From Mesostigma viride (Eukaryota; Streptophyta; Mesostigmatophyceae; Mesostigmatales; Mesostigmataceae): DNA of 64,000 nucleotides. How positions within the stretch are numbered: the first letter of the stretch is position 1; each line of letters begins with the position of its first letter. A program made the position numbers and the translations under genes. Shown piece by piece: positions 2,844-53,786 of this stretch. The notes under the pieces are model-generated. The model was not told where the DNA came from. It ran no database searches and was given only the letters and a program-made list of their open reading frames with translations. Location: the NCBI GenBank assembly GCA_009746045.1, contig RPFO01001162.1, forward strand, positions 683,978-747,977, read 5' to 3'.

Positions 2844-5800
2844 TGGGGCTTCCTCACCTTCACCTACATCGCGACCACGCTCTTCACGTCGGTCGTGACC
2901 AACAGCGCGGCCGTCGCCATCATGTTCCCCATCGCCTACTCGGTGATGCTCCAGGACCCCGCGCTGAGCATCGACGAGATCCTGATCACCCTCATGTTGT
3001 CCGCGTCAGACTACATCACGCCCATCGGCTACCAGACCAACATGATGGTCTTCGGGCCGGGGGGGTACCGCTTCAGCGACTACACCAAGTTCGGGGGAGC
3101 CCTCCAGGTGGGTGACCGCCAGCATGTATGTAATCGTATGCGCATACATTACTAGAGTATATGCGCTGTGGAACAGGACCGGGATATTCTAAGCGGGGGA
3201 ACCGTGTACGCCTGCTCCCTAGTATATAGTGACCACATCACGATCGGTGGATGCCTCCAGGTGGGTGACCGCCAGCATTACACACATCTGCATTTAATTT
3301 ATGTAATCTCGTACGTTCCCACGTCTTACTTGTGTGCTGATACACGTTTGTTGTGGAACAGTGCACGCCTACTCTGTGCTGTGGAATAGGGCACGTGTAC
3401 TCTATTATGCTGTGGAACAGTGCACGCGTACTCCATGCTGTGGAACAGTGCACACGTACTCCATGCTGTGGAACAGTGCACGCGTACTCCATGCTGTGGA
3501 ACAGTGCACGCGTACTCCATGCTGCGGAACAGTGCACGCGTACTCCATGCTGTGCAATACATAGGGCACGCGTACTCTGCAGTATATTTGTTACCCCGGT
3601 TGGTTGCATCAATCATCACTGGTACTGAATTGAGCTTGTGGAATCACGTTTTTGCAGTTCTGGTTGCATGCCTCAATCACCATGCATGCAAATTTTAACT
3701 GTTAGAGTAATTAATCACTGCAAGTGTGCTTTGATGACAAACTGCCAGGCAAACATGTGTGCTTTGATGACAAACAGGCGAAGGTGGGTGGTTTTTGGAT
3801 GTGGGCAGCGTTTGCACCTACCAACGCATGTAATGAGGTGTGGCATATGTGAATGTTGACCGACTTCATACGCAGTGGCCTTGTCATGGTTTGGATGACA
3901 GTGCTGCTAAGCATGGGTCATTTACTATGCGAAAGCGATGGGATTGGTTAGGCAAGAGAGCCTGCTATATTGTTTGGGAGCTGTGCATTAGTTGTCATTT
4001 CGAGCAGCCAGCTCTGCGCAGCGCATTTCGATCCCCTTCTTTTTTCTGTGGCTGCGTCGCGTGTGACTTGTCAGATGCCCGCATGCCACAATGCTGTCTG
4101 GCTGCTTGCGTGCGCTCATAAAACTGTCATCTACCTGTGTCATGTGGGCTGGAAGTGTCATATTCATGCAACAGACCATTAACGCAATATGTCCCTTTAA
4201 CCTAATTGCACCTTACGTCACATGATATTGGTGCCTAATGTTACGCTTGCAAAAACACTGCCTATCAGCCGCTACAAAACCCCAACTGACAATACTATTC
4301 TTCTCTCCACATCGGCTTGCAATGCGTGCAACTGCCCACCTACCCTGCTCCGTTCCTGCCAGGTCTGGCTGCTGATCGTCGCCATCCCGCTCATCATCTG
4401 GAAGAAGTACTGGTACATCTTCACCATCGGGTTCGTCGCGGCCAACCTCGTCGTCTTCTTTTGGTCGATTCGGGTACGTGCGCGCGCCTACTGCCTGGTG
4501 ACGTGCGCAACTGTCGCGCCCCCTAGCCTAGGTGAGCATCGCAAACGTGATAGCAGATTTTGTGTGTCTGATGGGGAGGGAGACTATGGTGAGGTCGACG
4601 TTCACTACTTTGTGCATGCCGATGTGATGCGCACGGCTGAAGATGTGTGAATATGGCGCATCACCATGCAGGCACTGCTTATGTGTATCCTGCCTGACAG
4701 TGCACAGTGGGCGCGCTGTGCACTAGGCGCCGTGCACCCTTGATGGCAGGTACCAGCTGCCTCTATCTGTGTCCAAGCATGGCGCGGTGCACTGAATGGA
4801 TGGGCATGCTGAGGGAGCCACGTGCTTGGAAGCTAAGGGTCTCTGTTGCGCTCATGACAGGTGCGGGCTGGGAGCCATAGGTTAGTGGTGTCTGCATATG
4901 GAGCTGGTATATGTCATTACATGTCTCAATCATAGTTTTATAGAGCTGGTATAAAGGAGCTGGTATACGTCATTACGTGTCTCAATCATAGTTATATAGA
5001 GCTGGCATAATGGAGCTGGTGTATGTCATTACGTGGCTCAATCATAGTTATATAGGGCTGATATAATGGAGCTGGTATATGTCATTACGAGTCTCAATCA
5101 TAGTTATAAAGAGCTGGTATACTGGAGCTGGTATATGTCATTACGTGTCTCAATCATAGTTATATAGAGCTGGCATAATGGAGCTGGTATATGTCATTAC
5201 GTGTCTCAATCATAGTTATATAGACCTGGTATAATGGAGCTGGTATATGTCATTAGTCTTTGCGTGTCTTCACATCAGCAGCTTGCTTTTATGTCGACGA
5301 ACCTTGAAACGTGCTGATCATGCGTAGCCTGCATCTCTTGTAGTAGTAATAATAATAATAATAATAATAACAATAATAATAATAGGATTTCTTCGAATCG
5401 TGGTTCTCTGAACATAGTTTCTTTATAGTGAGATGGAAGGGTAGCCGCTATAGCTAGGTTATTGGGTTCACGTGACATACCTTTTGAGGCCGGTGTGGCC
5501 TGATCCGGATCAGTCGTGGCCAAAGCTTTGGCCAGTTTTTTCTTGGCCAGGTGGCAGGAGCTACTTTGAGATACAGTACTGCATAAGTAGTTTCGTGTAG
5601 TGGTACGAGAGAGACCGCCGCAGGCGGCTGGGACAGCCGCTGGTTTTATGTCCCGCCGGCCGCGCGGGTTTCAGGCGTCAGACAATTAAGTCATAAATTA
5701 AACATGGAAAATTGTGGGCCGGCTGCCCTTGGTCAGGCCGCGCGCCACTAGACCTTAGGCAGCTAGTACGGAATGTACGTCATGGCTGAAAAACCGGTGT

Positions 5801-16270: not shown

Positions 16271-18909
16271 TCAATAGCTGGCACCTGGCCGCCCCTTTTT
16301 CTTTGCCTCCCTCTTCTTCTGTTCCCTCTTCTTCTGCTTCCGCACGTTTCTATCCACGAACTCGGACGGCAACGGCATGTTGACGCCGGTCTTGTCTTCA
16401 CCTGCGCCGATACCACCGCAGAACGAAGCCGCGAATGCACACAACAGTTCCTCAATCAGCAGTCCACACAAACATCAACATGCACATTAAGGAGCATGAA
16501 TCATATCAATTCGTCCACTACATCACCACCACCCACACCCCACCCACCACCACGCTTGCACACATGCACACATACAGAGACACGGACACTCGGTGAAAAA
16601 GGCCGTTAGGGTTCCAGCCATGCTACTCAACCTCCCGCGGCCACCTCCCTTGCCCCCTCCCTTGCCCCCTCCCTTCATTTTCGCATCAATCACTTTTGTG
16701 AACAACCTCAGCTTTGCTATCGGCAGAGTGCAGACACCATTGCCTGCGCGAGAGCCGCAACAATGCATGGAGCAAGCTCACAGCCAGCAGCGCTCCCCGG
16801 CCTGACAAATAGGGCATTGTCGTCCCCCCACCTCCCTGGAGCACCTACCGTCCTTGTTCTTGCGGTGGTGCCTCGACGTGGAACGCTTCCTCTTTGTGCC
16901 CCTCGCCCCTGCGCCGCTGCCCCTTGCCGCTGGTCGCCCGCGCCCACCTGGCTCCCCTCCCTTGCCCGCCACTTCCTTGCCCACCGCTGGCTTGCTGCCA
17001 GGGCCATGTGTCAGCCCCGCCCCTTGCAGCGCCTGTTCCCAGGTCAGCTCCCCCGCGTCCTCCTCCTCCTCCTCCTCCCCCTCCTCCTCCTCCTCCCCCT
17101 CCTCCTCCTCCCCCTCCTCCTCCTCCTCCTCCCCCTCCTCTTCATCATCACCCCCATCCTCCATGCCCTCATAGCCCTCCTGCTCCTCGTCTGAGCCATC
17201 GCTGCCCGCCTCCTCGCCCTCCTCATCACTCTCCTCCTCATCGTCATCATCATCGTTATCATCGCTGACCACATCACTCCCCGCGCCATCCCCTGCCGCC
17301 TCGCCCTCCTCCCCCCGCAGGTCCTCCTTGTCAAAGTAGTCCTTGGCCACCGGGATCGCGCGCGCCACCTGCTTGGCCACAGCGGCATTTGCCGCCTCCA
17401 GCACCTTGCCCTCCAGCGCCGCCGCCAGCGCCGACTTGCTCTTGGCCGCGTCACCGCCCGCACTGCCACCACCCTCACACTGGTCACCTGACTCGGGCGG
17501 TGGCGTGAAGAACGGGATGCGGCCGCGCTGCCAGTCGTACAGCACCATCTTGGCCGCCGTGTTCTTGTCCGGTTCGCCGCCCTGGGGGGGGCAGGGGGGG
17601 GGACAGGTCACACGATATAGCGTGTCAACACCCACCGTATGGGGGCAGGTCACACGATATCGCGTGTCCACATCAATATATCGTATTATATATGGGTGTC
17701 AACACCCACCGTATGAGCGGGGAATGGGGGACAACGTGGCGCACGTGGCAAGTGAAACAAGGGGGGCAGCACGAAGGCCAGGCATCCCTTCTGAGGCAGC
17801 AAGAAATCCACGTACTTGCTACAGGCAGAAGAGTCAGACCACCCTATTTCTAGCGCACCTTATCATCCAACATGCAGAGGTGGCAAACAGCGGATCTATT
17901 ACAGGCCCAACCCCGTCGCCGAGAACGGGAACGCCCTTCCACCCCCAGCACAGGAGGGGGCCGCCACCACTTGCGGCGTGCCTCGCGTGCCCTGGATGTG
18001 TACGGTGCAACACCGCCGCCACCGCCGCGAGCACGCACGCACACACGGTTCACCTTGAGCAGGCGGCCACTCTTCTTGGCGAGCTGCGCCAGGAAGTCCT
18101 CGTCGTCCTCCCTGTTGGGGAAGCGCCGCAGGAGGCAACCGCACACACGCAACGGGCACGGCGAGAGCAGCGCCGCGTGAGGTGGATACCCAGGGGCAGG
18201 GGCAGGGGCGGGGCGGGTCATGGAGAAGGCTCCCCACCACATGGCAAAAGGTTCTCATCAGCCCACCGCAATGAGCTTGAGCCAGTCACACCCCATCTGA
18301 CTCGAGTGCTTACACCAATGTGCATGGACGGAACTCGCGTAGCCGCGCCCCATGGACCATTTCATCATGCCCTAGCGCACTTGGAGACGCGGCTCCACCG
18401 GCATGCATGCGGCCCCCCACGTGCACTAGGTCTCCCCACGTAAGCGATTCCCCCCCCCGCCGCGCCCTGCATTTACGCCACATGCCAGCCCCCCTGCACG
18501 CACGGCGGGCACCCTGTTCCCCCGACACTTGTCACCTCACGGGCGCACGCAGCCGCCATGTTCCCATGGGCACACCCATGCGGATGCAGCCACCCTGGCC
18601 ATGACCACACACTAGAAATGATCAGTGCCCCCCAACCCCCACCCCACCCCCACCGCCCTTGTGGCATCGTCCACGCACCATCCGTCCAGTCCGTACGCTC
18701 GCTTGAGGTACTCGGGCTTGACACGTCGCAGCACCTCCGCCACATGGGTGGTGGCGTCCTCCAAGTTGGACACACGCACCTGCAGCACGCCGTTGGATGC
18801 ATGACCAAACAAGCACGCCACAAGGGGATGCACGCAGTCAGAGTGCCAGGTAGCAGATAAACCAGGCAGGGGGCCACACATATGCACGCATGATCAGGCA
18901 GGCAAGCAG

Positions 18910-18969
<60 letters not shown>

Positions 18970-21900
18970 GGGGAATGGAAAGGGCATGGAAAGGGAGCGC
19001 CAAGCAAAAGGCACAGACGGCGGTCAGCAGAAGAACATGGTGCAATATCTGGAGCAACGCTGGCGTTGGCCGGTGAGTAGCAGCACGCCGGTGAGTATGA
19101 TGCGCGTAACAAAGGACGACAGCACATGAGTTGATAACGTGGCGCCAGGTCGATCGGGCCAGGCAAGGCCAGGCAACCATCCGCTCAAGGTTTCACCCAC
19201 GTTAACACACGGCAGTAAGTTCTTCATCATTTCATATGGAGGGGAGGGGGGCGGGGGAGGGGGTGTTCCACATCCATGGCCCTGTGACGGGGTCCATGAA
19301 AGCATGCATTAGGTGCACCGTGATGTCGCCATTACCCTCGCGGCCCCCTACGGCTTCGCAAGGGTCATCACACCGCCCAAGCGTGGTTCTAGCAGGAGCA
19401 GCGCGCACCGGCCCCGCCTAGTATCTGCGCGCCGTGCCGCTGCGCATCGGCGCGCATCGTGAGGCAAGCCAAGGGAGAAAGGGGGGGTAGGAGAGGGACG
19501 CAACGGCCTGCTCCGGAATGCGAGTGGACTGAGTCAGGCAGCCCAGCTGGTGGGTTGCCAGGTGGCGGGTGTGCGTGCCACGTGCATGCCATGAGCCACC
19601 CACGCACCACCCCTTTGAGGATGATGTCCGTCTCGCTGTCGCTCGAGTGGTAGACCACGCCGGGGCAGTCGATCAGGAAGATGCGCTTCATCAGCGTGAT
19701 GTACTGCCACACCTTGGTCTCGCCGGGGGTGGGGGCCACCTTGCACACCTGAGGGAGGGACAAGCGGACAAGGGGGGCAGGAACAGCAAGGGCAGCGGCG
19801 GCCGAAACGGAGTGAGCGCATGCGTGTGTCCCCAGCCACGGTGGGCAGCCCCTGTGCATTGCCTGGCCAGAAAAATGAGAAGCGGGCAGCGGCCACAAGA
19901 GAGTGCTGGGATTAGAAGGGCCCCGCTTCCGGAACAACTCGCTGGCACCATGATGCAGGCTTACCACGGGAGAGTGAGTAGGGCAACATCCCTATGCATA
20001 CCACACCTCCCCATACATGCATGCCACACAGACACCGTGGACTTGTCTGCGCAGCGGCAGCCCTTGGAGACACCGAGCACCCACTCGTGCGCCACAGGAG
20101 AGACGGCGGAAACACCTGCTACAGCGCCGGTGGCCGGCACACACCCTGTCCTAGCAGCCCTGGCTGCCAACCTCAATTACCTGTCCTTGCATGTTGCGTA
20201 CTCAACCCTGCGTTGTAAGACCGCCCTTGTTGCATGTACGCATCGCTCTGCCAGCCGCGTATGCATGAACATACCGTACTTCCTTCGCGTGCCCTACATG
20301 CCTGCATCCACATGCGCACGCGCCTCCATTGTGCGGCCTGCAGGCCACATTCATTCATAGCGCCCACGCCCCTCCTGTGTGCGCGCCGACTCCATCGTGT
20401 CCTCATGCTCCTCACCCTACTCCTACCCACCTCCTGTGTGCGCGCCGACTCCATCCTGTCCTCATGCTCCCCACCCTACTCCTACCCACCTCCTGTGTGC
20501 GCGCCGACTCCATCGTGTCCTCATGCTCCCCACCCTACTACCCACCTCCTGTGTGCGCGCCGACTCCATCGTGTCCTCATGCTCCCCACCCTACTCCTAC
20601 CCACCTCCTGTGTGCGCGCCGACTCCATCGTGTCCTCATGCTCCCCGCCCTACTCCTACCCACCTCCTGTGTGCGCGCCGACTCCATCATGCCCTCATGC
20701 TCCTCACCCTACTCCTACCCACCTCCTGTGTGCGCGCCGACTCCATCGTGTCCTCATGCTCCCCGCCCTACTCCTACCCACCTCCTGTGTGCGCGCCGAC
20801 TCCATCGTGTCCTCATGCTCCCCGCCCTACTCCTACCCACCTCCTGTGTGCGCGCCGACTCCATCGTGTCCTCATGCTCCCCACCCTACTCCTACCCACC
20901 TCCTTTGTGCGCAGCGTGTTGATGACGGACGACTTGCCCACGTTTGGGTAGCCCACAAAGCCGACCGAGATGGCCTGCTTGTCCGCCTTGAGACGCGCCA
21001 GTTGGCGCAGCAGCGAGAGGAGGGATCCCTGCACACACATCCCGTTGGTCGTACCACGGGTATAGTGCACGCGCCGCGTAGAGTACCAAACAGCATGGGT
21101 GGGCCGCATGCTCCACGGCCAGGGTGGGTTGGTTGATTGGGGGCATTGACAAGGCGCCACAGGACCGCATACGCAAGAAGCCCACCAAGGATGACGGTGG
21201 GCTGATGGGATCCGCCACCCCTGCGGCACGCACGCAATACAACGAGGCATCCATCCTGACCAATGCCACCTTGGCCCTGTGCGTCAACCAACGAGGCATC
21301 CATCCTGACCGATGTCACCTTGGCCCCGTACGTCAACCAACGAGGCATCCATCCTGACCGATGTCACCTTGGCCCCGTACGTCATACAACGAGGCATCCA
21401 TCCTGACCGATGTCACCTTGGCCCCGTGGCTCTTGGTGCTGCGCACGCTCACCTTGGTCTATGGGCTGATGGCACACGCCCTCACCTTGCCCAACAGGTT
21501 CTTGATGGCACGCGCCCTCACCTTGCCAAACGGGTTCTTGATGGCACACGCCCTCACCTTGCCAAACGGGTTCTTGATGGCATGCGCCCTCACCTTGCCA
21601 AACGGGTTCTTGATGGCACGCGCCCTCACCTTGCCAAACGGGTTCTTGATGGCATGCGCCCTCACCTTGCCAAACGGGTTCTTGATGGCATGCGCCCTCA
21701 CCTTGCCAAACGGGTTCTTGATGGCACGCGCCCTCACCTTGCCAAACGGGTTCTTGATGGCACGCGCCCTCACCTTGCCAAACGGGTTCTTGATGGCACA
21801 CGCCCTCACCTTGCCAAACGGGTTCTTGATGGCACGCGCCCTCACCTTGCCAAACGGGTTCTTGATGGCACGCGCCCTCACCTTGCCAAACGGGTTCTTG

Positions 21901-24900
21901 ATGGCACGCGCCCTCACCTTGCCAAACGGGGTCTTGATGGCACGCGCCCTCACCTTGCCAAACGGGTTCTTGATGGCATGCGCCCTCACCTTGCCAAACG
22001 GGTTCTTGATGGCACGCGCCCTCACCTTGCCAAACGGGTTCTTGATGGCACGCGCCCTCACCTTGCCAAACGGGTTCTTGATGGCACGCGCCCTCACCTT
22101 GCCAAACGGGTTCTTGATGCTCGCATGGAAGGCGAGGCATGGGTACTCCTTGCACAGTGTGCGCAGCCACCCGCGCGTCACCCAGGCAGGGACCATGTCG
22201 CACTGGACACACGTACGCACACATGGCCACGGGAAAGGGGGGGCATGGTACGTGTGGGGGAGAGGAACAGGCCATGCGCGGCAGGCACCTAGGGCAGCCA
22301 TGGTCAGGCACAGGCAGCCACACACGAGAGCACAGCAGAAGCAGGCAGACCCGCCGCTTGGGCAGACGAGGAGCCGTGGATGGGCCACGAGGCGGGGGCA
22401 TGGATGCACATCACGGTGGGGTGAGCAGTGTGCAAGGACAGGCATGCCAGCGAGTACGGATGCAAGGCAGCGGGTACAGACGCCAGCGGGCCCGAGGTGG
22501 CGCTGCTGCCATTCCCCGGAAGAGGTTGACTGCAGCAGGGGGGTGGCTTCATGGGGCGCGCCAAGCGGTCATGCCGCGGCCATGTTGGGGCAGGGCGACT
22601 GCCCTTGGTGGATATCTAGTGATAGGGCTCGCTACATCATGGGCCCGCTACATCATCATGGGCCTGCTACATCAGCACGCGATGCAACCGGCTCTAGCAC
22701 GCAACCCCTCCTACCTAGCTCGGCCTCCTGCGCCCGCACGCAGGCCACTATGCCACCTCCTGCAGTTGCAGTAAGGAACAGCCGGCGCCCACACATATGT
22801 CGACCGGATGCAACCACCGTTACCTGATCAATTGGATGCGCATGCGTGCCCACCTTGTTGGGCAGGAGGATCATGTGCTCGTGCCCACCTTGTTGAGCAG
22901 GAGGATCATGTGCTTGTGCCGGCAATTCTTCTTGAGGTGCCTCTCCAGGTGCGGGCAGCGCGTGCCCTGAGGGTTGCGTGCGTCCAGCACCTGCACGACA
23001 ACATCGCTGCTGTCCACCACCTTGTACAGCTCGCCCCAGATGCGCTTGCTCTGGCCCTTGAGGAACATGCTGGCACGCGGCCCCTCGCGCATGCCGTCGT
23101 CCTCGCGCACCAGCGAGCGGTCCGCCGCAGCTCCTTCCAGCTCCAGCTTGGTGGCATACCCCTCTGCAGCAGGGCGGGGGGGGGGGGGGGGGGGGGGCGC
23201 AGCAAAGCGCGAAGGGGTCAGGCGCATGTGGCCAGGGACATAACAGACTGGCTTTGCAAATGCTATTCCTGGCTTCATGAAGGTGCCCCCCCTATCTAAT
23301 AAGTACATGGCTATCATTACAACCGTAACCAATTGCTAGCCTATCCGCGTATCTTCCTCACCGATGCTTTACACCCATCCACCCGCTCATTTCGCCCTAT
23401 CAGAAGTGGCCCTATCTTCGAAAATGATCCAACCTCTCACAAGAAGCCCTTAAGTATGGCAAGTAGCCTGACACCCACCTGCCCCAGCCGACACCAACTA
23501 CCACCCACCTGCCCCAGCGGACGCCGACTGGGCCAGCTCCGCCAGCCCCTCGGCGCTCAGCTTGGGTCGCTTACGGCCCTTCTTGGGCCCGAATGTGTGC
23601 TGGTAGGACTCGGAGGAGAGCAGGCGGGAGCGCGCTTGCTGCCACGTGCACACACAGACATGTGAACGCACACACAACCGTGCACACCCACACAGGCGTG
23701 CAGGCAGACACACGATGCAACGCTCCAGAGACGTCAAACACGAACATGCATGACGTGAGACGTGAGACGTGAGACGCGGGCATGCCCTCGACAGCTGTGT
23801 CCGACGCAAACACACATCGGTCGCAGGCACACCAGTGGGAAGCGGTGTGCGGTGTGCAGCGATGGGGCAGCGTCGCGGATGGAAGCTGTCAGGTGCCGTG
23901 GCACCGATGATGATCTCCTGGCCCATGCCATCCACCATGAACGGGATGGCAGCCGCCCCATACACATGCAAGCACTCATTCGGGATCCGTATTTCTCCCC
24001 CCCCACTCGCCTAAACCCCGCCTCATTCCCCCCCCACTCCTCGCCTACTCCCCCCCCACTGCCCCGCCATTTGGCCTTGCCCCGCTGAAGAAACACCACC
24101 CTGCGCTGGTCAGCCGAGGTATGTGGCGCGCTATGTGCTGCGTGCCGTGCACAGGTGTGGGCGAAGCCCGCAACCCTGGCTACCCTTGCGACCCTTGGAA
24201 CCCTTGCTATGGTTAATTGCGCGGTCCCGCCCCTCACCTTGGCGGTGCTGTTGTCGTTGAGCAGCGACATGGGCAGCTTCCTCTCCTGCAGCAGTACGGT
24301 GAAGCCGTCGGCCGTCTTGACCGCCATCTCCTCGCGGAAGCGCTCCAGCTCCGCCTGGCCGATCACGCGCGTGTTGCCTGGGGGGGGGGAGGCACCCAAG
24401 TAAGGGCAATCAGGGAGGCAGCGAGCACGGGCCATGGAAAGCCCAAGAGAAAGGGGGCGAATGGCAGCACGCGAGAGCAACCGGGGCGGGAAGGGGCAGC
24501 GTGCGCGGGCAGATACGGGGCCGCCGCGGGAGAAGAGGGAGCAAAGCAGGGCAACCAGCGTGGGTCGCACCAGCACATGGCGAGGATAATGCCAAGCTGT
24601 AACATATAAAATGTTTGATTCATGGAAGATGCCAGTGCAGGGCGTGTATGCAGGCAGGGGGCCGGTCAGGGAGGAAGGGGACTCATAGGGAGGAATTGCA
24701 AGCTAGATAGGGGCGAGAAGGGGAAAAACTTCTCTTTGTAAGAGCCAAACAACAACCAATATAGTATATTCGCTGGCCGTGCCACCCGTTGCCCCACTGA
24801 AGAGCGTGTACCAGAGGCAAGTATAGATGAGGAGGGCCAGCAAGGAGGGCACGGCGCCAATGGGAAACACGCTTCAAACAATTGCTTCCTTTGACCTTAC

Positions 24901-25597
24901 TCTAATTGGGGCACGAACAAAACGGCCAGCTGACGACTGCGGTATTGACTTAACATCACTTTCTGCTTCGAAACTCAAGGCAGATTATTATTAAGTACAG
25001 AATGGCACTGATATCGCGCACATGCCACCGGGGTAAAGCTATCAACACACCATTGGGTAACGAAGGCAACTAACCTTCACAGATACAACTCTAGTATAGC
25101 TCATCAAGTCAGCCGGAAAACTTCCAATGTCTAACACAGCGGTGACTCCGTGCATTCTTCCACCTAAAAGGATGCGAATTGCGAATGGGGAGAGTAAGAA
25201 TTTTGAGATTGGTTATACGCCTATTTACCAGCTCGAAATACACACAGTACGTAAAGCTTAAGCTTTCGATAAATGCAACCACAAGAAGCAGCGTTGGTAA
25301 GAGCCGTACGCGAATCGTTGGTGACGGCCACCGCGCATGCGCTGATCACTTACCAAACCACCGTCGGTCTGGCTGAATCCGAGTGCTGGGCAGCTCGCTA
25401 GACTGGAATTGCTGGTACTTGAGCTTTCCATCCTTGTCGCGCCTGGGCTTGGCCTTGTACATGTTAAGCCGCCGGACGGTGCTGGCACTCCGCATATTGT
25501 CGCTGCCATCCTTCGTCCGCTTGTTTTGGTCATTAGAGCTTTTCGGTTTTGTGCTGGGGATCTTCTTCGCGGGCGATTTACTTTTATGTTTCGCCAT
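16271..25597 (-). CDS. NOG2: Nucleolar GTP-binding protein 2 (60S ribosome assembly GTPase)
   Basis: Eleven exons on the minus strand: 25597-25354, 24377-24238, 23638-23509, 23163-22889, 22202-22098, 21028-20900, 19748-19608, 18779-18679, 18111-18054, 17581-16849, 16401-16271. They total 2187 bp (728 aa) and all joins keep phase. The protein is the Nog2/GNL2/NUG2 GTPase that acts on pre-60S particles in nucleolus and nucleus. Motifs occur in the circularly permuted order: DARNP and G4 NKCD (about residues 262-265, across the exon 4/5 join), G1 GYPNVGKS (324-331), G3 DCPG (368-371). The N-terminus has the family block RWFGNTRVI across the exon 1/2 join and [10 protein letters not shown] in exon 3. 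After GGEPD and [10 protein letters not shown] comes a long acidic Glu/Asp tract, then a basic tail with KTGVN and lysine runs, as in the family. Introns 3 to 6 start with duplicated splice donors, some expanded into minisatellites. Confidence 0.93.
17604..17720. repeat. Imperfect direct repeat beside the NOG2 exon 10 acceptor
   Basis: The segment GGTCACACGATATAGCGTGT at 17605 recurs at about 17647 with one change, and CAACACCCACCGTATG occurs at about 17628 and 17700. The array lies in NOG2 intron 9, starting about 25 bp upstream of the exon 10 acceptor beyond a G-rich run, so repeats also gather near this acceptor. Confidence 0.75.
18909..18968. repeat. (CA)n microsatellite in NOG2 intron 7
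   Basis: About 29 CA units, uninterrupted, about 130 bp upstream (in gene direction) of the exon 8 acceptor. Long Val/Cys or His/Thr open frames over it are repeat translations. Confidence 0.97.
20372..20915 (-). repeat. 59-bp minisatellite made of NOG2 exon 6 end plus donor
   Basis: Unit starts at 20372, 20431, 20490, 20546, 20605, 20664, 20723, 20782, 20841 and the exon itself at 20900; the period is 59 bp with one 56-bp unit. On the gene strand each unit carries CGCACA, AGGAGGTGGGTAGGAG, i.e. the last bases of exon 6 (encoding RTKE, altered in the copies) and its GTGGGT donor. So nine extra donor copies lie directly downstream of the real one. 59 is not a multiple of 3, so use of most copies would shift the frame. 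Confidence 0.93.
21241..21436 (-). repeat. 49-bp tandem repeat, four units, in NOG2 intron 5
   Basis: Units start at 21241, 21290, 21339 and 21388, an exact 49-bp period (AACGAGGCATCCATCCTGAC then GTCACCTTGGCC). Read on the gene strand each contains CCAAGGTGACAT, an AAG/GTGAC donor-like word similar to the exon 5 donor AAG/GTGAGG, so this array may be an older relative of the neighbouring 36-bp array. Confidence 0.9.
21463..22134 (-). repeat. 36-bp minisatellite made of NOG2 exon 5 end plus donor
   Basis: Eighteen units with an exact 36-bp period; TTCTTGAT starts run from 21499 to 22111 and donor words CTCACCTTGCC recur every 36 bp. The rightmost (22098-22134) is the real exon 5 end. Each unit encodes IKNPFGK, the family motif before the splice, then GTGAGG and intron bases read as VRARA. 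The frame stays open through all units, so choosing any donor adds multiples of 12 residues. Variants within units ([24 protein letters not shown]) show the copies are not an assembly duplicate of one read. Confidence 0.96.
22846..22915 (-). repeat. 35-bp tandem duplication of NOG2 exon 4 end plus donor
   Basis: 22846-22880 and 22881-22915 match at 33 of 35 positions. The right copy holds the real exon 4 end (ILLLNK) and donor GTGGGC (22883-22888). The left copy repeats MILLPNK and the donor 35 bp into the intron. Use of the second donor would shift the frame by two. Confidence 0.93.
23472..23531 (-). repeat. 30-bp tandem duplication of NOG2 exon 3 end plus donor
   Basis: 23472-23501 and 23502-23531 match at about 26 of 30 positions. 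The right copy holds the end of exon 3 (GCTGGGGCAG) and donor GTGGGT. The left copy repeats both, 30 bp into the intron, so the second donor would add ten codons in frame. Confidence 0.9.
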
Positions 25598-27074
25598 TTT
25601 GGCGATAATGTTAATATCCGACCAATGTCCAATTCACTGAAGGAAAATAGCAAGCTTCCCCCGTTGATGGCGGCACGTACCGGCGAGCGCAGGTCCCGTG
25701 TTGCCAACAATCAATTTTCCCGACGGGCGCAGCTCAGGTCCTGGCGTCCTGCAGCTTGCGTGAGAACAGTGAAAGCCCGAGGACACTGGCGTCTGCACAG
25801 GGACTTCTGGGGGCACAATAATGACTAACAATTTGTGCGGCTGGGACTTCCGCCCGCCGATATCGGAGTCACCGCTCAACTCTCAAGCAAGCCCGTTCTT
25901 GATTCTTCGTGCAACCTGGGCCAACTGGCCATGGACTCTCTCCTTCGCCAGGCGCCACGGCACGAGCTACAAGTTCATACAGTAGCGTGTTTGGGCATAT
26001 ATTAGCCTAGAATTCGAAACGATCGAAATAATAGGCTAGTTACATTGTTACAACTACTAGATAGGCAGTAGGAAACCGGAAATCTGTCAATTACATGGAA
26101 AACCAGCCGCTATAGAATCTCTGCTGCTCATGTGCGGCGTGGGATCCAAATGACTGACTACACTACATGGTACAGTACTGACATGGAAAACCTGAAATCT
26201 GTAACGACTACCGAGTCAGACTGATCATGACTGACTATAGTGACTGACTGACTGACTGACTGACTGACTAACGTATTTACCTGATCATCCAGGGATCATC
26301 CCTGGATCATCTTCATTTTTCCGTGTTTGGACACACAGCTAGGCCGCGGACCGCTTCGCAGCCCTAAACCAATCCAACCCGCGCTTTTCGGCTAACGAAT
26401 CACGGACTGGTAATCTCCGGTAGTACGTTGTACAGGAGTGGACCGCTTTACCTAAATGAAAAAGTGATCAGGTCGTTGCAGGTCTGTGCCGTCGACCTGG
26501 CCATGGCGTGATTATGGAGCGTAAAACTCCCAACATGGTGCTGTTGTCCATGAAACATGCAACGATTTCGGTATTAGGCATGTGGCGGGCATAGGTGGAT
26601 TCACCATGACGCCGTTACAACTGGATCACGTTTGTGGAGTGAAGCGCGAGACTGCCTGGTTAAGCCCGCCAGTCCTGTAGTTTTCCGTCCCTTGCGTGAT
26701 TTCTTAAACACTATTATTTTTTTTACCAATATCATACCGTTGAATCGGTTGATAAATAGATTTCTCTACTACTCAAGTAAATCTTGTTCCGTGGCTTGTG
26801 CTCAACAATCTCGGCTTAGTTCGCCGTCTGCTACTTGCCACTTCTATCCATGCCCATCTCGACAGCACCATGTGCGAGAGGAGGTAACAGGCGCGTAAAT
26901 ATTTTGCGGGCATCCGTTCGATGTATCTAGTACCAGCGTTGGCGTGCGCAACAGGCAGGCCCCGCGGCTACGTTTGGGTTTGTGCGCGATTTCGAGTTTG
27001 AACGTCAGAACGTCATACGGCAGATCTAACTACCGACTTGCCGTGATTGGACTCGTCGGCACGGTAAGACGGTA
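25598..27074. promoter_or_regulatory. Divergent intergenic region between NOG2 and the METTL13-like gene
   Basis: About 1.5 kb separates the two start codons, which face away from each other. It must contain both 5' UTRs and probably both promoters. A (TGAC)n tract lies at about 26238-26268 and a short inverted ATCATCCAGGGATCATCC motif near 26283-26310. I could not identify a TATA box or defined elements. Both neighbours act on the translation machinery, so a shared promoter is possible but unproven. Confidence 0.45.
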
Positions 27075-32378: not shown

Positions 32379-35300
32379 CTACTTCACCGAACGCCTCCTC
32401 GCCTCCTCATACACCGCTTGCACACAGTGCCAGTTGAGGATGGGGGAGAGCAGCCCTGCGGCAAGGCCCGGGCGGCCCGCGGCCACTGCCGCCTGCAGCA
32501 GAGGCCGCAGCAAGTCCTCATTGATCAGCCCCCAGAGGGTCAGCAGCGCCCACAGGCCGTAGTGGAAGGGAGTCATCTGGATCATCAACCGCACGTTGAG
32601 GCTCGGGTGCTTCTGGAAGAAGCGCACACCATTACGGCCACGCTGCCGCTCCTGCCCCGCCCATGGTTGTTTTTGTTTCCGATTCCCGGCCACCCACCCA
32701 CGCACCAGGATGGTAGCAGCACAAGAGGGGATGCACGTGGTGGAACACCAAACCCCGAGGAAAGATAATCAGTTCACCGACCAAAGGGGTGCTCGTTCCT
32801 TTGCAGGACAATGCAGCTGGCAGAGCAAGGCCCTTAGGTAAACATGGGTGGTGAGCTGGCAACCTTTTCAACGCAATGGACAAGGCTTGGTAACGCTCTC
32901 ATTCTCTTAGGCTGGTTCCCACCGCCCGATGCCATTAGCTAGCTCACCTGCTCGATGAGCGCCGGCAGCTGGTCCAGGGAGAAGGCCGGGTGGTAGTGGT
33001 ACCCCACTGCCGCACGGCACTGCACGATGGTGGCTCCTTGCTGGCGCAGGCGCTCTGGGAATATTCACCGACACGGCAGTGGTGGCGGGCACACAGTGGA
33101 CAAGGACAATGGATGCGGTCATCGTGACGCCGGGGCAGAAAAGGCTGACACACAGGGGCAACCGTGTTTGCTCGTGGGGCCTCGACAGTCACACACACAT
33201 TACTGAGATAACTCGATGCAAAGACAGTCCCGCACACATGAGCAGAATAACGGCAGAACAACGACCAAGGATGGGGAAGCGCCAAGATGGCCCAAAGCCG
33301 CATGGCATCCACGCAGGTCCTTCAGCAGCATAGAGAGCAGCGTAGAGGAGTCAGGAGTGCAGCATCCGGTACAGGTGACAGCTTCAGCATCACAAGACCA
33401 ATTATATTCGCAGTACAGACCCACACCCCCAAATAAATGAACACGCATAAAATTAAACCGCATCGTACCTCCCAGTTCCAGATCCTCCCACCCATAGCTG
33501 CTGAAGTCTGCGTCAAACGGGCCGTCAAGTTGGTCACCGCCCGTATCGCTGCCATCAGGAACACCAGCGCCATCATGGCTGCGTGCTGGCCCCCTGATCG
33601 CGCGTGCTGCGTCCACCAGCCGGCGGCGCGCGATGGCCACGTTGCCCGTCGCAAAGAACGCCGCCGAGTAGTCCTGGCGCGTGCGCGGTGGGGAAGGGTG
33701 GGCGAAGAGGTCAGGATGCACTCCAGGCGAAGAGAGCCACTGTCTCGGAGGTGAAGGGATTAAGGGTGAGGGGAAGGGTGGGTGGTTGAAGAGATCAAGG
33801 GTGAGGGGCAGACCCCGCGTGCACAACCCAATAATGATCTCGGCAGGGCACTCGGTGCGGATAGGATGGAAGCCAGGGGTGAGAATGGGGGCCACCAGGG
33901 AGGATGGGGGGCAAAAGAAAAAAGGAATCGAGATTTACGATGAATCAACAACCCCATCCGTGCATATTATCTGCCACCATCTGTGGTGGATGGACGCGCA
34001 CTGGGAAGACATGGCGACTGCCAGGTAGTGGCGTGCATCTGGCGATGACACCTACTAAACAGGTGGGGGTGTTCATACGATGATGGCGGTGTCTGACCCG
34101 GACCACGATCGAGTACAGATGCACTAGGGGACCAGGTGGCCCTGCGGGCGCACGCAAGGGGATAGTTCCGCGCTTCCGATGGCTTCCATTCTGCTGTGTT
34201 TTGTGCCCCATCAACCCCCCCTCTGTGACGACGCAAGATTCACCCCTGTGCCACGTCGCCCACCAGCACACCTACGCATGCGATATCCATCCAATGGCAT
34301 GGCAGCAGTTGACAACACCCCCCCGCCCCCCTCGCCGCCATCTTGCACGTCCCCTCACACACATGCCACACGCCCCCTCACTGTGAGCTTGTACGCCCCC
34401 CTCACACACATGCCACTCGGCCCCCTCACACACATGCCACACAGCCCCCTCACCGTGAGCTTGTACGGCTCCAACTCGGGGTGCTCAAAGTTGCTCGTGT
34501 TGACCACCGCGCCGTAGCTGAATGCGCGGTCGTCCCCGTCCCTCGCCCTGGCGGCCGTCAGGGCCTTGTCGTGCTCCGCGAGGAACGCGGGGCACACGAC
34601 CATGTCGCTGTCAATGAAGACGATGGTGGAGCCCCGTGAGGCGCGCATGCCCAGGTTGCGGGCGCGAGTAGCCCCCGCGTGCGCCTGCTCCAGCAGCACC
34701 ACGTGGGCCAGGCCGCCCGCCTGCTTCTGAGCGCGCACCCAGTGGATCGTGTCGTCGGAGGAACCATCGTCAACAAGGATCACCTGCAGGTGGTGGGGTG
34801 GGGGGGGCATGCGTTGGGGGCGTGAGGGTGTGAGGGCGTGAGGGCGTGAGGGCGTGAGGGCGTGAGGGCGTGAGGGCATGAGGGCGTGAGGGCGTGAGGG
34901 CATGAGGGCATGAGGGCATGAGGGCGTGAGGGCATGAGGGCGTGAGGGCGTGAGGGCGTGAGGGCGTGAGGGCGTGAGGGCGTGAGGGCGTGAGGGCGTG
35001 AGGGCTTGAGGGCGTGAGGGCGCGAGGGCATGAGGGCGTGAGGGCGTGAGGGCATGAGGGCATGAGGGCATGAGGGCATGAGGGCGTGAGGGCGTGAGGG
35101 CGTGAGGGCGTGAGGGCGTGAGGGCGTGAGGGCATGAGGGCATGGGGGTATGGTGGATGCGCTTGCCAGCTGACAAGAGGGGCATAAAGGTGTAAGAAGG
35201 CAACAGACATGTGATGGGTAGCTGCTCTCAGTGCATCCTGCCCTTAGGCATTTTGCCTGCGTGGGCGTGCTATGCAGAACAGGGTGGGAGCTGCAAGGTA

Positions 35301-36755: not shown

Positions 36756-39700
36756 ATGAAGCGTTTACCGTCGACGCTACTATGGAACGGGCTGCGTCTG
36801 TCGTCGTCGCTTTGGAACAGCCTCCCAGCTGCCCTGTCACCCTGCCACTTCCAATTTGCAAGGGACGGTGGCAATGCGCATGCCGTCACGTCAAATTGTG
36901 TAGGCCATCCACCTCATTCGCGCGCTTCCCGCCAGTTTAGGACGTTTAGCACGCCCTTTCCTCCAAGGCGCGCGGGCGCATGTCGTGGGAGCAACTGTAG
37001 CGCCTTCCGGGAAAATTATTTCCCTGTCCTTTCTCACACACAGAATCACGCGGTTCCTGTTGCTTCGCTTCACGACTGGCCGGCCGAGCAGCGGCAGGAT
37101 GAAAATTCGCGGTCACCTCCGTTCTCCGAAGGGCCCCCTGGCACGGAAGCGCCATCCGTACCACTTTCCGCTTTTGCCGATGCTGAAAGCGAATCAAGAA
37201 ATCCGCGCCCAGACGTCGTCGACCATGGGTACGCCAGTGCACGCCTTTCCCTATCCAAGTGCTGGAACTTCTCGACTTGCATCTGTCACGTTGTCATGCT
37301 TCCTGTGGGTCCCGGCATCAGTCCATTTGATTGGCCTGCAGGCAGCATACCCGCTGGTGGCTGGGCCTGCGCTTGCCTGTCCACATGCAAATCCTAGTCT
37401 CAGTACTTCAGAGTGAATATTACTGTCCGTACTACTCTCGGTACTACGGAGTGGGACCCGGCGAGCACTGGGAGGACCCCCCCACGGTTGCCCGTGCGTG
37501 CCTGTCGCCCCGTGCAACTCCGGCGTACTATCAATCGCAAGTCTCCTATCAACTGCGACCGCATCGCATGTACGCCCCGACACTCACACGGGGCGTATAC
37601 TCCCCCCCACACACACGCACATGTGAGTGCTCGCGCCCCCCCCCCGGCAGAAGCACGGCTGTGATCAGCGCGTGTGTCGGCAACAGCATCATCCTGCTGG
37701 CCAAGCTGATTGTCTACGCGCAGTCCAACAGCAGCGTCATGCTGGCCGAGGCGATGCACTCGCTGGCCGACCTATCCAACCAGGTGGGCCACTCTACTAG
37801 GAATAGTTCGCTGTAATGTACAACATGGTGGTGGTTACTGTAGTGTGCGACCATGTAGGTCACTGTAATATCCATCCATGTGGTTCAAGCTAATCGCTCG
37901 CTTGATGACCTCATTGCTGATTAGCCTTGCAGACACGGCCATGGCCGATGCGCCAGCTGGCGGCATGGTGTCATGTATCCCACCCCATTGGTACTGTTGG
38001 TCGCGTCGTTCTACAATTGTCCCGCGTGCACCTCTGTGTCCTCTACACGGCGGCTCCCATGATCTCTCACTGCGTCGTTGGCCGTTTGTTTCACGTCCCG
38101 CAAGCTACCTGTGACCAAAGGCGTGGGCATCTGCGCAGTCTTGTCACGGGCCATCGCTTGGCGTGAATGGGTTAGAGCGCAGTAGGTTTAAGAAGCGCAG
38201 CTCAGCACACATGTGGCTGCATGCCCACAGTTCCTGTACCCGGTTCTTGTACCCTGACCCCACCCACACGCTCCTCCTCCTCGCTGCTTCCCCTCTATAC
38301 CGTTGGGATACCCACCCCACCCTCATTCCTTCCATCCCTCACCCCCCACCCCCACGGTCGCCCCGCAGTGTCTGCTGCTGGTCGGGCTGGTGCGCTCCCG
38401 TCGGGCGCCGGATGCCAAGCACCCGTACGTGGATGTGCTGGCGCCTCGCTGGCTGGATCTACCAGGTTTTGCACGTGGATGGCGGCACGTTGGGGCCATA
38501 GTTCTTGGAAGATATTCCCAAGTGTGGGGTGTGCACCACAGGTCCACCGTAACAATGTAGTCGCAGGTATTTAAGAATCTGCTCATGAAGAGAGTGCACT
38601 GTGCACTGTTTTCCATAGCATGCCGTTCACACGGCGGGCCATGCTTTATAGCGCTGCACGCCATAGTCGCCATGCTTTATAGCGCTGCACGCCATAGTTT
38701 GACAGCAAAGCATCGTCCATCGAACGACACTCCATGGTCCTGCATGGCAACTATGACAGCAAAGCATCGTCCATCGAACGACACTCCATGGTCCTGCATG
38801 GCAGAGTGCAGCCCATAAGTCGCCCCAAGGCCACCGCACCCATGGACGGGATGATGCAGCGGACCCCGCACCTGCAGGTGTGGGCGCGCTGATATCCCCC
38901 CCCCCATTCGCGTTCTCCCTTGGCTTTCTTCTGCTCATCAGTATCTGTGCACTATCCATCCGAATGCCCCTATCCTCCCCTTAACGGCTACCCCCCCTGT
39001 GCCCCTACCCCGTACCCCTGTAAACCCCTCCCCCCCACCCCCAGCTATGGCTACTCACGCGAGCGCTTTGTGTGGGCGCTGATCTCGGCAGTAGGCATCT
39101 TCTTCTGCGGGTCGGGCATGTCGGTGGCGCATGGCGTGTACGGCTTCCTGCACCCTGAGGTGAGGGGGGAATGGGGGAGGGGGGAGGGGACGGGGGGAGG
39201 GGACAGGGGGAGGGGACGGGGGGAGGGGACGGGGGGAGGGGACGGGGGGAGGGGACGGGGGGAGGGGACGGGGGGAGGGGACGGGGGGAGGGGACGGGGG
39301 GAGGGGACGGGGGGAGGGGACGGGGGGAGGGGACGGGGGGAGGGGACGGGGGGAGGGGGTGTTGAACCACCCAGCGGGCCCCTGCCTGCTTTCCTGCTCC
39401 TGCACTGGCCCCTTGCCTGTTGGCGCACACACCATCTGCCTCACGTATGATCACGACTCACAGGCTCGTTGCATCCCCACCCCTACCACACAGCACCGGG
39501 CGTTGCATCCCCGAGGCCATCTGCGCGTCCTCACCTCATGCGCGTCTTGCCCCCTGCGCATCTTGCCCTCTGCACGTCCTCACCAGGCTTGGGCGTAAAT
39601 GGTTTTTTGGGTGAAGTAAATTAAACGTAAATCAAATGTCAAAAAGGGGGCTTAAAGTAAAATAGACAAAAATTTAACTTATTTTTGAGTCTGGACTTAT

Positions 39701-42700
39701 AATTCAAATTAAGAATTTAATTTAAATTAAATGCCAAGTCGTGTAAATTTCTTGTCATTAGGAGTTAGATACTCGCAAACTTGATGAAACGTTTGCAGTT
39801 TTACAGGAGAAGTCGGTGCAGGACGAGGTGGGATGCCTGGCCGCCTGGCTTTCCAGACGACGACTCATGGCTCATCATGAGCCTAGCGGTACTGCCAGCT
39901 CGAGAAGCGCACGCCACGTCTTTAATTTACGCGTTTACGTCATATTTGCGACTTCGATCCCATGCGTAAATTTAGCGTTAAATCCCTTGTTTTCTTGGAC
40001 TTAATTAAACGTAAATGAAGCGTAAATTACGACTTAAATTTACGTGTCGAGTTACCATAACCCATTTGTGCCCAACGCTGGTCCTCGCCCCCTGTGCGTC
40101 TTGCCATCTGCACATCTCCAGCGTCCCTACGTGGTCTCTGGCTACACGCTGCGAGCGACGCGACGGGCTCTGCCTCGCAACAGTCCCTCACCTTGCTCAC
40201 AATAGGCCCACGTTGCTGCCGTGGCGTGCCATCCGCCTTTGCGTGTTTGTGTTTGCTTGGTGCAGGCCGTGGAGAGTATGGGCTCTCTTGCTGCGGTGCT
40301 TCTGGTGTCAACCGTGATTGAAAGTGAGTCAGCCCCCCCATTGCCCGCTTTTCCCCCATGCATGTGCAGGCAAGGTGGATGATTAGCGTCGGTGCGTATC
40401 ATCAGGAACATTCACTAGGGGCCACTTTCAGCCTAACATCTTCATTGAGCGCAGGTGAAACATTGACGATGGCCAAATCCCAGCGCGACTCCGACGCGAT
40501 CTCTTCCCGATGTGGCATGGTTTCATAGCATCCTCGGCAGTCAACAGATAGGATCGATGTTTTCTTCTTAGCTAGCCTGATTGTTTGCCTTGGCATTTCC
40601 TTCAGCGCATCCCAGCGGTGACTCGGTCGGGCTGTGCTCCTTACGAGGCTCTCTCGGATGATTCATCACTGCGTCCTTCATTACAACCCATCACCCTTGT
40701 GCTTAGTACCTATCAACCCATCACCCTTGTGCTTAGTACCTATCAACCCATCACCCTTGTGCTTAGTACCAATCAACCCATCACCCTTGTGCTTAGTACC
40801 TATCAACCCATCACCCTTGTGCTTAGTACCTATCATGCAAATTCCTTTGCGCGCTTTTACTTTACCACCCACCACCTGCCCCGTGTCGCCCCCCCCCCCC
40901 CTTACCCTGCCAGCCGCTACGCTGGCCATCGCGCTGCGTGCCGTGAGGCTCAATGCGGCGGCGGCGGGGCTGAGCGCGTGGCAGTACGTGCGCTCGGCGC
41001 AAGACCCGCTAGCGGTGGCGGTGCTCGCAGAGGTGGGGCAGGTTCAAGTATCCTACTGCATCAGACTGTTTGTTCCGGATGAGCCTGTGATGCACCGCCT
41101 TCCATGTCATTGTTGTGATGACTGGGTGTCATTCACCACTCATACCTCTCTTTGCCGCCCTCCATGCGGCCATCGCCATGACCTGGCATGCTGCTCCCTG
41201 CCAGGGCTACTCTATTGTCTCGCGCTATTAGGCTATTTTTCTATCCCGTTGCTGGCTGGCAGGCCCCACAGCCTTGGTGGGGCAAGCTGGCGGACAGGTC
41301 TTACAGCCTCGCCCCCCCATGCTTGCTCATGCACCCCACGGCATGCCGTGTCTTGTGTCCATTGTCCATGTGCGGTGCCACCCCTTTCCCCGTCACAGGA
41401 CGGTGCTGCTGTGCTGGGCCTGGGTATCGCGGGCGTGTGCTTGTCGCTGATGCACGTTACGGGGCAGGCGTTCTGGGACCCCCTGGGGTCCATCCTCATC
41501 GGCCAACTGCTTGGGGCGGTATGTATGGGCGTGCTGCTCGGGGCGGTTTGTGTCGCGGCGAGCTGCCGGGCACAGTATGTGCCCCGGTGTAGGGTGTGTC
41601 CAGCAGAATCTGCATCATGACATGCGTGCGCACACCAGGAGGTGTGCTGTCCTGCTACTTTATGCTGCCGCTCACATGGTCTTGCTAGTACCGGTAGTGC
41701 CCACGAAGCTGCTGGCTGGAAAACAGATCTGCCCGTTTCCTGCCGGCCCTCAGTTGTGGTTTCCACGTTACGCGTTGTCAGCTTCCTCCTCACGCCAGCG
41801 GGTGCCGTTGGGCCACCGGGGATGCTGTGTGGATGCTGTGTGGATGCTGTTTGGATGCTGTTTGGGCGCTGTTTGGATGCTGTTTGGACGCTGTTTGGAT
41901 GCTGTTTGGACGCTGTTTGGATGCTGTTTGGACGCTGTTTGGATGCTGTTTGGACGCTGTTTGGATGCTGTTTGGACGCTGTTTGGAATGGTTGCTGTGT
42001 GGATGCTGCGTATCCCTTGAAATGATGCGTTCCTGGGCTGGCGCACGTCGAAAAGTCATAGCCTTGGGTTGTTGGGGCCCAAGGGATGCGACGCATCACC
42101 CCCTCTCCTTGAAGCTACGGAACTTGGCCCTTTCTTTCTGGATGCCCGGTCTGAGTCATGCCCCTGCCCGTGCCAGTGTGAGGGTAGTAGGGCAATACGG
42201 CCAAGCCTCGGTGTATTGCCGTATTGCGTATTATACGCGTATCATACGCAATTCGGCAATATGCCCCCCCCCCCCCCCCCCTGTATTGTATAATACGGCG
42301 TGTCTACTGTATAATGCGGCTTGCTAGCTCACACTGGCCCGTGCGCTCCCTGTCCGTTCCTGCCAGGTGGCGGTCTTCCTGATCAGCCAGAACCGTCGGG
42401 CGCTGGTGGGCCAGTCCATGTCGATGCAAGACATGATGCGCGTGATGAGCCTGCTGCAAGAGGACCCGGTGCGTGGCCCATGTGGTGGTGTGTGCGGGGC
42501 GTGTGCCATGGATGGGTGTGCAGGGCGTGGCATGCGGCGTGAGCGACGAGACGCCGGTGACGCGTGGTGGTGAGGGCGGGGCATGGCGCGTAGGGATGAG
42601 TTTTGTCCACGCGCGGGGCGAGCGCGGGTAGGCGTGGTGAATGGAGGCCTGCGATATGTCTCGTCATTGTGGCTATCATTGTTTCTGTTATGGTTAGTTT

Positions 42701-53144: not shown

Positions 53145-53786
53145 GGCCTAGTGGTGGAAAGAGGTTATTGCTTAGCCTTTGATCAAAAGCATCTGAAGAG
53201 GTTAGGCTTTTCCCTGTAAAAAGCCATTGAAGGGGTTATTGCTAAGCCTTTAAAAGCATGCATGTCAGGGGTTATTGCTAAGCCTTTAAAAGCATGCATG
53301 TTAAGGTTGTTGCTGATCCTGGAAAAGCATCTTTGAGCAGCTGGATTTTTTTTTCTTTTTTTTGCTGCTGCCTGGAATGACGCCCTCTTTGGGCTTCCTT
53401 CTTTTGTGTGAGCTGCCTTTCTTTCACTTTTTGCTCTCACGTTGTTGTGAGCTAAATAGTGGGGGGGGAGGTGGCATATCTCACACATGATTACTGCTGA
53501 TAGTGGATGCATTCCAAGTAGCGGTAATGACCAGTCCAGGATGATATGGCACGCAAACGCGACAGCTGTCGCGTCCGTGATCTATCACGTCCGCAATTCA
53601 GATTTTAGCGTAATTCTGACGTCCGCAGCCTTGTGCGGGTTGCTATACCGCGGCCCGGTACTGACGCCGCGGATCTCAGTTGTAATCACGCGTCCACTGA
53701 ATATAGTGGATCACACACAAGAGTACTCTATTGCTATGGATATGCCTTCCAAGTGATAGGCTAGGATATAATGGCACGCAAACGCG
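53145..53786 (+). mobile_element. Mosaic repeat: R and P modules, forward orientation
   Basis: R (53145-53465) is the inverse of 46740-47060: GAGGTTATTGCTTAGCCTTT repeats, an internal duplication of AGGGGTTATTGCTAAGCCTT at 53232 and 53267, and GTTGTTGTGAGCTAAATAGT. P (53470-53702) is nearly identical to 51815-52040. From 53703 it switches to the segment seen at 48977-49063 (TAGTGGATCACACACAAGAG), ending at CGCGACA. Confidence 0.8.

Follow-up and report, generated by a model that had tools for sequence, protein, structure and literature searches.

Tandem repeats that run across exon/intron boundaries are known from lancelets, where they are called mirages and have been described in Adh3, globin, TnC and PGBD5 genes (PMC3087553, PMC3902484, in the accessible portions of both papers). 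The units of the Adh3 mirages measure 10-72 bp, as the founding study is relayed in these citing papers; among the globins, a mirage lies at the 3' end of an intron in BflGb6 and at the 3' end of an exon in BflGb9 (PMC3087553, PMC3902484). Mirages are further reported to be harmless to splicing and variable in length (PMC3087553). Length differences between haplotypes and somatic instability also count among their traits. A second line of work ties tandem duplication to the birth of introns. Under the Rogers model, introns are gained by tandem duplication of AGGT, with ATP2A1 and 24-bp exonic repeats in the fission yeast genes SPOG_01682 and SOCG_00815 discussed in this context, and an intron of potato RdRp is traced to a single duplication of an intron-exon segment (PMC4974935, as far as the available part goes). 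Here we describe tandem copies of exon ends and 5' splice sites (donors) in Mesostigma viride, found above all in the gene for nucleolar GTPase 2 (NOG2). They lie in a stretch of 64,000 nt (contig RPFO01001162.1, positions 683,978 to 747,977, assembly GCA_009746045.1), which we call the window. This streptophyte alga represents an early branch of the lineage leading to land plants.

Introns 3, 4, 5 and 6 of NOG2 each open with extra copies of the end of the preceding exon joined to its donor (Table 1). This had been proposed in a sequence-only reading of the window, and both our gene model and Tandem Repeats Finder (TRF), by which tandem arrays were called throughout, put all four arrays where that reading had placed them. 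The donors are known because the exons join to a full frame of 708 codons. Its product carries the Pfam domains NGP1NT (8.3e-45) and MMR_HSR1 and is 63-69% identical to the best 120 NOG2 proteins listed from plants and green algae; a public Mesostigma model of NOG2 was not among the best 120 of 7896 matches, nor among the best 120 of 6027, and the top entries of these listings reach 67-68% identity. Introns 3 and 4 hold one extra copy each. The copy counts given earlier stand for intron 3 (two of 30 bp), intron 4 (two of 35 bp) and intron 5 (eighteen of 36 bp, counting the true site), but the ten copies of 59 bp claimed for intron 6 do not: there are nine donor copies including the true one, the last unit is followed by GGGCG, which is not a donor, and the array involves just 13 exon nucleotides, one mismatch among them.

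The array at the start of intron 5 consists of 17 intronic copies of GTGAGGGCGCGTGCC followed by ATCAAGAACCCGTTTGGCAAG, the latter corresponding to the final 21 nt of exon 5. These copies show nine differences in total, six of them at one CpG; nearly identical as they are, they are young or homogenised. The array remains open in the frame of the exon throughout 22097-21485 (17 x 12 residues), and a gene finder could call it coding. Further downstream comes a second array, of 49-bp units, and in the space between the two arrays are one unit of 33 nt and one of 36 nt that resemble decayed copies; with the exception of the last stretch, all of these units end in CCAAG, after which GTGA or GTGG comes. 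When the region between the arrays was searched for older copies of the 36-bp unit, lenient scoring found a signal reached in 0 of 1000 shuffles at offsets 632-735 and at a frequency of 0.002 over the whole rest, whereas under strict scoring the signal is weak (0.028 and 0.117, respectively).

Each exon end was scored against its own intron with a donor query of 30 exon and 12 intron nucleotides, and with an exon-only query of the 30 exon nucleotides, alongside 300 dinucleotide shuffles per query; we call a copy strong at a score of at least 18. The sample comprises 21 introns from four genes of the window: nine from NOG2, seven modelled in a ZNT9-like cation-efflux gene (Pfam, 5.2e-33), four modelled in a family-2 glycosyltransferase gene (Pfam, 1.1e-22) and one modelled in an SLC13-like gene (PF00939 at 3.9e-06, slightly below the Pfam cut-off). 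The ZNT9-like and SLC13-like models are without outer exons. All counts refer to one assembly and one window, in which NOG2 is the gene chosen for its pattern. Donor queries from NOG2 introns 3, 4, 5 and 6 score 18, 29, 34 and 22, values that were not matched in 300 shuffles each, while scores at the nine acceptors of NOG2 are 6-10. For the exon-only query the four values are 11 (reached by 1 of 300 shuffles), 20 and 22 (0 of 300 in both cases) and 10 (10 of 300); taken as a duplication of the exon, intron 6 is the weakest case.

The pattern is not special to NOG2, since the glycosyltransferase, SLC13-like and, weakly, ZNT9-like genes show donor copies too. In intron 2 of the glycosyltransferase gene, a copy of the exon end is joined to GTGAGGGGG, with the GT at about 34381 (counted by hand), and the donor query scores 21 (0 of 300 shuffles). 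Our protein for this gene is identical over 428 of 428 modelled residues to the public Mesostigma viride model Mv22145-RA (P0121), which splices intron 2, the one with the array, at its first donor. Mv22145-RA has 13 extra residues at one acceptor and 69 extra N-terminal residues, the introns of which fall outside the 21; for intron 4 our own acceptor was used in the counts, that of Mv22145-RA being 39 nt upstream. In the SLC13-like gene, a second copy of exon end and donor occurs about 153 nt downstream of the first (GT at about 3261, counted by hand). Its donor query scores 21 (0 of 300), the exon-only query 9 (15 of 300), and the acceptor also weakly resembles its own intron, with a score of 11 that 5 of 300 shuffles reach (2 of 300 for the exon-only query). 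Intron 6 of the ZNT9-like gene is a weak case, its score of 12 being reached in 4 of 300 shuffles, and the donor queries of introns 7 (score 7, 274 of 300) and 3 (score 9, 75 of 300) of that gene are not significant. Units cut by hand from glycosyltransferase intron 2 and ZNT9-like intron 6 match only themselves, so that these are not clean tandem arrays of an exon-bearing unit. Elsewhere in the glycosyltransferase gene, a (GGGCGTGA) x40 array at 34818-35141 ends 34 nt before the acceptor of intron 1 and is the only TRF array within 50 nt of any of the 21 acceptors.

Table 1. Coordinates of the NOG2 exons and of the arrays and copies at or near donors (positions in the window; a slash in a donor marks the exon/intron boundary; x gives TRF copy number)
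Feature	Position	Strand	Unit and copies	Boundary and remarks
NOG2 (nucleolar GTPase 2)	16778..25597	minus		10 exons, 9 GT-AG introns, joined frame 708 codons
NOG2 exon 3	23509..23638	minus		donor CAG/GTGGGT, intron 3 from 23508
NOG2 intron 3 donor array	23472..23529	minus	30 bp, x1.9 (x2)	starts 21 nt inside exon
NOG2 exon 4	22889..23163	minus		donor AAG/GTGGGC, intron 4 from 22888
NOG2 intron 4 donor array	22845..22920	minus	35 bp, x2.2 (x2)	starts 32 nt inside exon
NOG2 exon 5	22098..22202	minus		donor AAG/GTGAGG, intron 5 from 22097
NOG2 intron 5 donor array	21467..22119	minus	36 bp, x18.1	starts 22 nt inside exon
NOG2 intron 5 second array	21240..21427	minus	49 bp, x3.8	units end CCAAG, then GTGA or GTGG
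NOG2 exon 6	20900..21028	minus		donor GAG/GTGGGT, intron 6 from 20899
NOG2 intron 6 donor array	20371..20912	minus	59 bp, x9.2	9 intronic units, one 56 bp
Glycosyltransferase-2 intron 2 array	34351..34453	minus	24 bp, x4.3	from donor base 1 (34453)
SLC13-like donor copy	3087..3280	plus		intron from 3108; not a TRF array
ZNT9-like intron 3 array	39174..39358	plus	13 bp, G-rich	from +14, no exon sequence; intron from 39160
ZNT9-like intron 6 array	41500..41570	plus	27 bp, x2.6, degenerate	19 nt into exon; intron from 41519
ZNT9-like intron 7 array	42467..42531	plus	26 bp, x2.4, degenerate	from donor, nearly all intronic; intron from 42469

Across the 21 introns, a strong extra copy of the boundary lies within the same intron at 6 donors (NOG2 introns 3-6, glycosyltransferase intron 2 and SLC13-like intron 1), each of them unmatched in 300 shuffles, and at none of the acceptors (Fisher p=0.021). 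Lowering the threshold to a score of at least 12 gives 7/21 versus 0/21 (p=0.0086). TRF arrays fall in the first 50 nt of 8 of the 21 introns, compared with the last 50 nt of none at a period of at least 10 (p=0.003) or of one when all arrays are admitted (p=0.02), and an array covers the donor together with at least 8 exon nucleotides at five donors (NOG2 introns 3-6 and ZNT9-like intron 6) and at no acceptor. The excess of donors over acceptors anticipated by the sequence-only reading is thus present in the whole sample, but not significant without NOG2, where strong copies stand at 2/12 donors versus 0/12 acceptors (p=0.48) and arrays in the first versus last 50 nt at 4/12 versus 0/12 (period at least 10, p=0.09) or 4/12 versus 1/12 (all arrays, p=0.32). 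A donor bias, on 21 introns, is suggestive.

These introns are rich in arrays in any case, and duplications in them frequent: arrays of period at least 10 take up 18% of 14840 intronic bases, or 8.8% with six donor-anchored arrays removed. Of 840 intronic 42-mers drawn at random, 15% too have a strong second copy within the same intron (donor arrays included), which counts against the donor excess and indicates that duplication is common here. The NIES-296 genome has a mean intron length of 1142 bp, with 30.1% of the intron space repetitive (PMC6947507).

As had been argued from the differing sequences and lengths, the duplications are separate events, each at its own donor. The seven units concerned (NOG2 introns 3-6, glycosyltransferase intron 2, ZNT9-like intron 6 and SLC13-like intron 1) do not recur in the window outside their own arrays at up to 25% mismatch, ungapped. 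In pairwise comparison, 5 of 21 unit pairs reach the 5% shuffle level (scores 10-14) through short common stretches, mostly around the donor, the longest being shared by NOG2 introns 3 and 6 (AGTCGGCG and AGGTGGGT). We therefore reject a single spreading repeat, the units being locus-specific in the window, and, within the same scope, an introner or mobile intron, no unit having been found outside its own array. A new intron formed by tandem AGGT duplication, as in the Rogers model, is rejected as well, for the nine NOG2 acceptor regions are no more like their introns than are shuffles (6-10). The window also contains a repeat that, judged by eye, did spread, unlike the donor arrays: 33-36 bp arrays at 46902-47007, 48748-48867 and 53159-53330 are built of TTATTGCTAAGCCTTTAAAAAGCAT-like units in both orientations that appear related by eye.

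How do these arrays compare with the described systems? The sequence-only reading knew of no described pattern of this kind, which the lancelet mirages (PMC3087553, PMC3902484, in part) contradict, being tandem repeats across exon/intron boundaries. Two mirage traits recur here, in that the array spans the boundary (at 5 of 21 donors) and the unit differs from one boundary to the next. Mirages, however, are known from Branchiostoma and occur as a group at both 5' and 3' boundaries (globins, PGBD5; accessible portions of the same papers), whereas the present copies are in a streptophyte alga and were found at 6 of 21 donors and 0 of 21 acceptors; an individual mirage need not occur at both kinds of boundary. 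The Rogers model and the potato case share with our arrays the tandem duplication of a segment with splice signals, and potato is a plant case that includes an intron/exon boundary; yet in both, according to the available part of PMC4974935, the duplication makes a new intron, whereas in the present case every intron has retained an unrelated acceptor of its own and its start is repeated to form an array. The genome's ordinary intronic minisatellites are alike in size range and array style but lie inside introns, while the donor arrays include exon bases and the donor. The donor arrays fit the description of mirages and not the Rogers model.

The explanation we favour, and think probably correct, is that these are mirage-type minisatellites in a streptophyte alga: duplications across the donor that were tolerated and then grew as minisatellites do. 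Short direct repeats near the exon end and in the first tens of intron bases would promote duplication of the segment between them, donor included, by slippage, microhomology-mediated repair or unequal exchange. Such a duplication could persist if the exon-proximal donor still yields correct mRNA and the remaining copies are excised with the intron, and the array might then lengthen and be homogenised like any minisatellite. Inspection of array edges by eye is consistent with the first step. In intron 5, exon GAGCATCAAG and the array end GTGCCATCAGCCC have the word CATCA in common; in intron 4, GGCACAAG and GGGCACG share GGCAC with an adjacent mismatch; and in intron 6, GCGCACAAAGGAG and GCGCACACAGGAG form an imperfect 13-nt repeat. 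These edge repeats agree with duplication by slippage or microhomology and subsequent unequal exchange. In favour of the explanation as a whole we also count the locus-specific units, the general frequency of arrays in these introns, the first donor chosen in Mv22145-RA, the near identity of the intron 5 copies, the stops that follow later donors in introns 3, 4 and 6 (see below) and the reports on lancelet mirages. A duplication at an acceptor, on the other hand, would disturb the stretch from branch point to AG or add exon sequence to the mRNA and would probably be removed; acceptor-spanning duplications would thus be rarer because the 3' end of the intron is constrained and an extra upstream AG puts exon sequence into the mRNA.

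Several results weigh against tolerated duplication as the whole story. Clear edge homology was not found at the array of NOG2 intron 3. Judged by exon bases alone, scores reached by at most 2 of 300 shuffles occur at 4/21 donors versus 1/21 acceptors, a difference that is not significant (p=0.34). Moreover, neutral retention alone should spread arrays evenly over the tolerant part of the intron, yet 8 of the 19 arrays in introns have their start no more than 50 nt from a donor, where four versions of random placement lead us to expect 1.9-3.2 (p 0.00025-0.007, which is optimistic because NOG2 was picked for its pattern). The total of 19 was obtained by merging overlapping TRF rows by hand and excluding the CA dinucleotide array of NOG2 intron 7 (18911-18968). 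Without NOG2, 4 of 11 array starts are near donors compared with 1.3-1.7 expected (three versions, p 0.03-0.07).

Since array starts are more frequent near donors than random placement predicts, a mutational bias at donors may also be at work. A process targeting 5' splice sites might act in this way if G-rich non-template DNA after the donor (through R-loops, G-runs, polymerase pausing or co-transcriptional splicing) led to more breaks or slips there and so made donors hotspots of duplication. Besides the array starts, the composition of the introns offers a weak hint in favour of this idea, which the sequence-only reading had raised. Over the first 50 nt of the introns the mean skew is 0.32, towards G, and the last 100 nt are skewed towards C (-0.29). 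In addition, GGG occurs in positions +1 to +8 at 7 of 9 affected versus 3 of 12 other donors (p=0.03), a post hoc comparison of groups set by hand, the affected set being the eight TRF cases plus SLC13-like intron 1. However, affected and other donors show no significant difference in GC skew over the first 50 nt (p=0.13), GGG is also present at three unaffected donors (NOG2 intron 2, ZNT9-like introns 1 and 5), and the sample comprises only 21 introns, among which the placement excess falls to the borderline values above once NOG2 is left aside. We consider such a process unlikely, though it is the strongest competitor of tolerated, mirage-type duplication. An extended version, in which Mesostigma 5' splice sites would be genome-wide hotspots of tandem duplication tied to transcription or splicing, and introns would grow from the donor end by reiterating the exon/donor junction, strikes us as doubtful to a similar degree; about 880 of the 1069 nt of NOG2 intron 5 can be read in this way, as young, decayed and second-generation units ending in a donor.

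Alternatively, selection may keep the arrays, either because weak sites capture U1 better when many equal donors are present or because the arrays regulate the amount of productive NOG2 mRNA. Four affected donors read GTGGGN, a weaker match to CAG/GTAAGT, and in NOG2 introns 3, 4 and 6 the use of every later donor copy is followed by a stop codon (1 of 1, 1 of 1 and 8 of 8 copies, respectively), with the second donor of intron 4 also shifting the frame, so that only the first donor among the copies keeps the frame open. Against this, affected and other donors match the consensus alike, at 5-7 of 9 positions with full overlap, and the intron 5 copies vary mostly at the one CpG, for which no selection is needed. 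We regard maintenance by selection as very unlikely.

Intron 5 behaves differently from the other three with regard to frame: 18 of its 19 donor-like sites, the true donor counted, are in frame and open, and only the 19th leads to a stop. This would suit a coding repeat, in which the first donor is left unspliced and the 36-bp units add as many as 17 in-frame repeats of 12 residues each to NOG2. But in all six homologous proteins from plants and green algae, PFGK or AFGK runs directly into GSLLSLL with no insert at the site of intron 5, and the arrays of introns 3, 4 and 6 are not open, which makes a coding role highly improbable. Together, the stops that follow later donors in introns 3, 4 and 6 and the homologues without an insert at intron 5 indicate that the first donor serves the protein; its use in the cell is inferred, as are the mutational mechanism and the neutrality of the arrays. 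Finally, inflation of the arrays by assembly or polishing error, conceivable in that long arrays are difficult to assemble, is scarcely credible given that unit variants differ among copies, that the two-copy cases (NOG2 introns 3 and 4, SLC13-like) are of another kind, and that, if the window comes from that assembly, the long reads of NIES-296 (N50 11.2 kb; PMC6947507) far exceed the 542 and 653 bp of the arrays.

Other features of the window include a perfect (TGC) array of 485 units at 1-1457 that touches the left window edge, reading frames resembling retroelement pieces by eye (11514-11765, 12710-13192, 14087-14566 and 62148-62519), and a single open plus-strand frame (27030-30095, 1021 codons) with no Pfam match at 0.01.

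Among the papers listed by a literature search, judged on titles and the beginnings of abstracts, there was no report of boundary-spanning arrays in a plant or alga, and minisatellites of this kind came up from lancelets only. Term searches gave no match for 'splic' in the main texts of two Mesostigma genome papers and no mention of Mesostigma in PMC10487979. What we describe is a repeat of known type in a lineage from which our search brought up none, and it is not limited to a single gene. Annotators should note that an array of in-frame donors, like the one in NOG2 intron 5, could be called coding. If the donor bias holds genome-wide, Mesostigma would offer a natural test of how introns lengthen and of how the spliceosome chooses among up to 18 like donors, and of a possible role of transcription or splicing in making donors liable to duplication.

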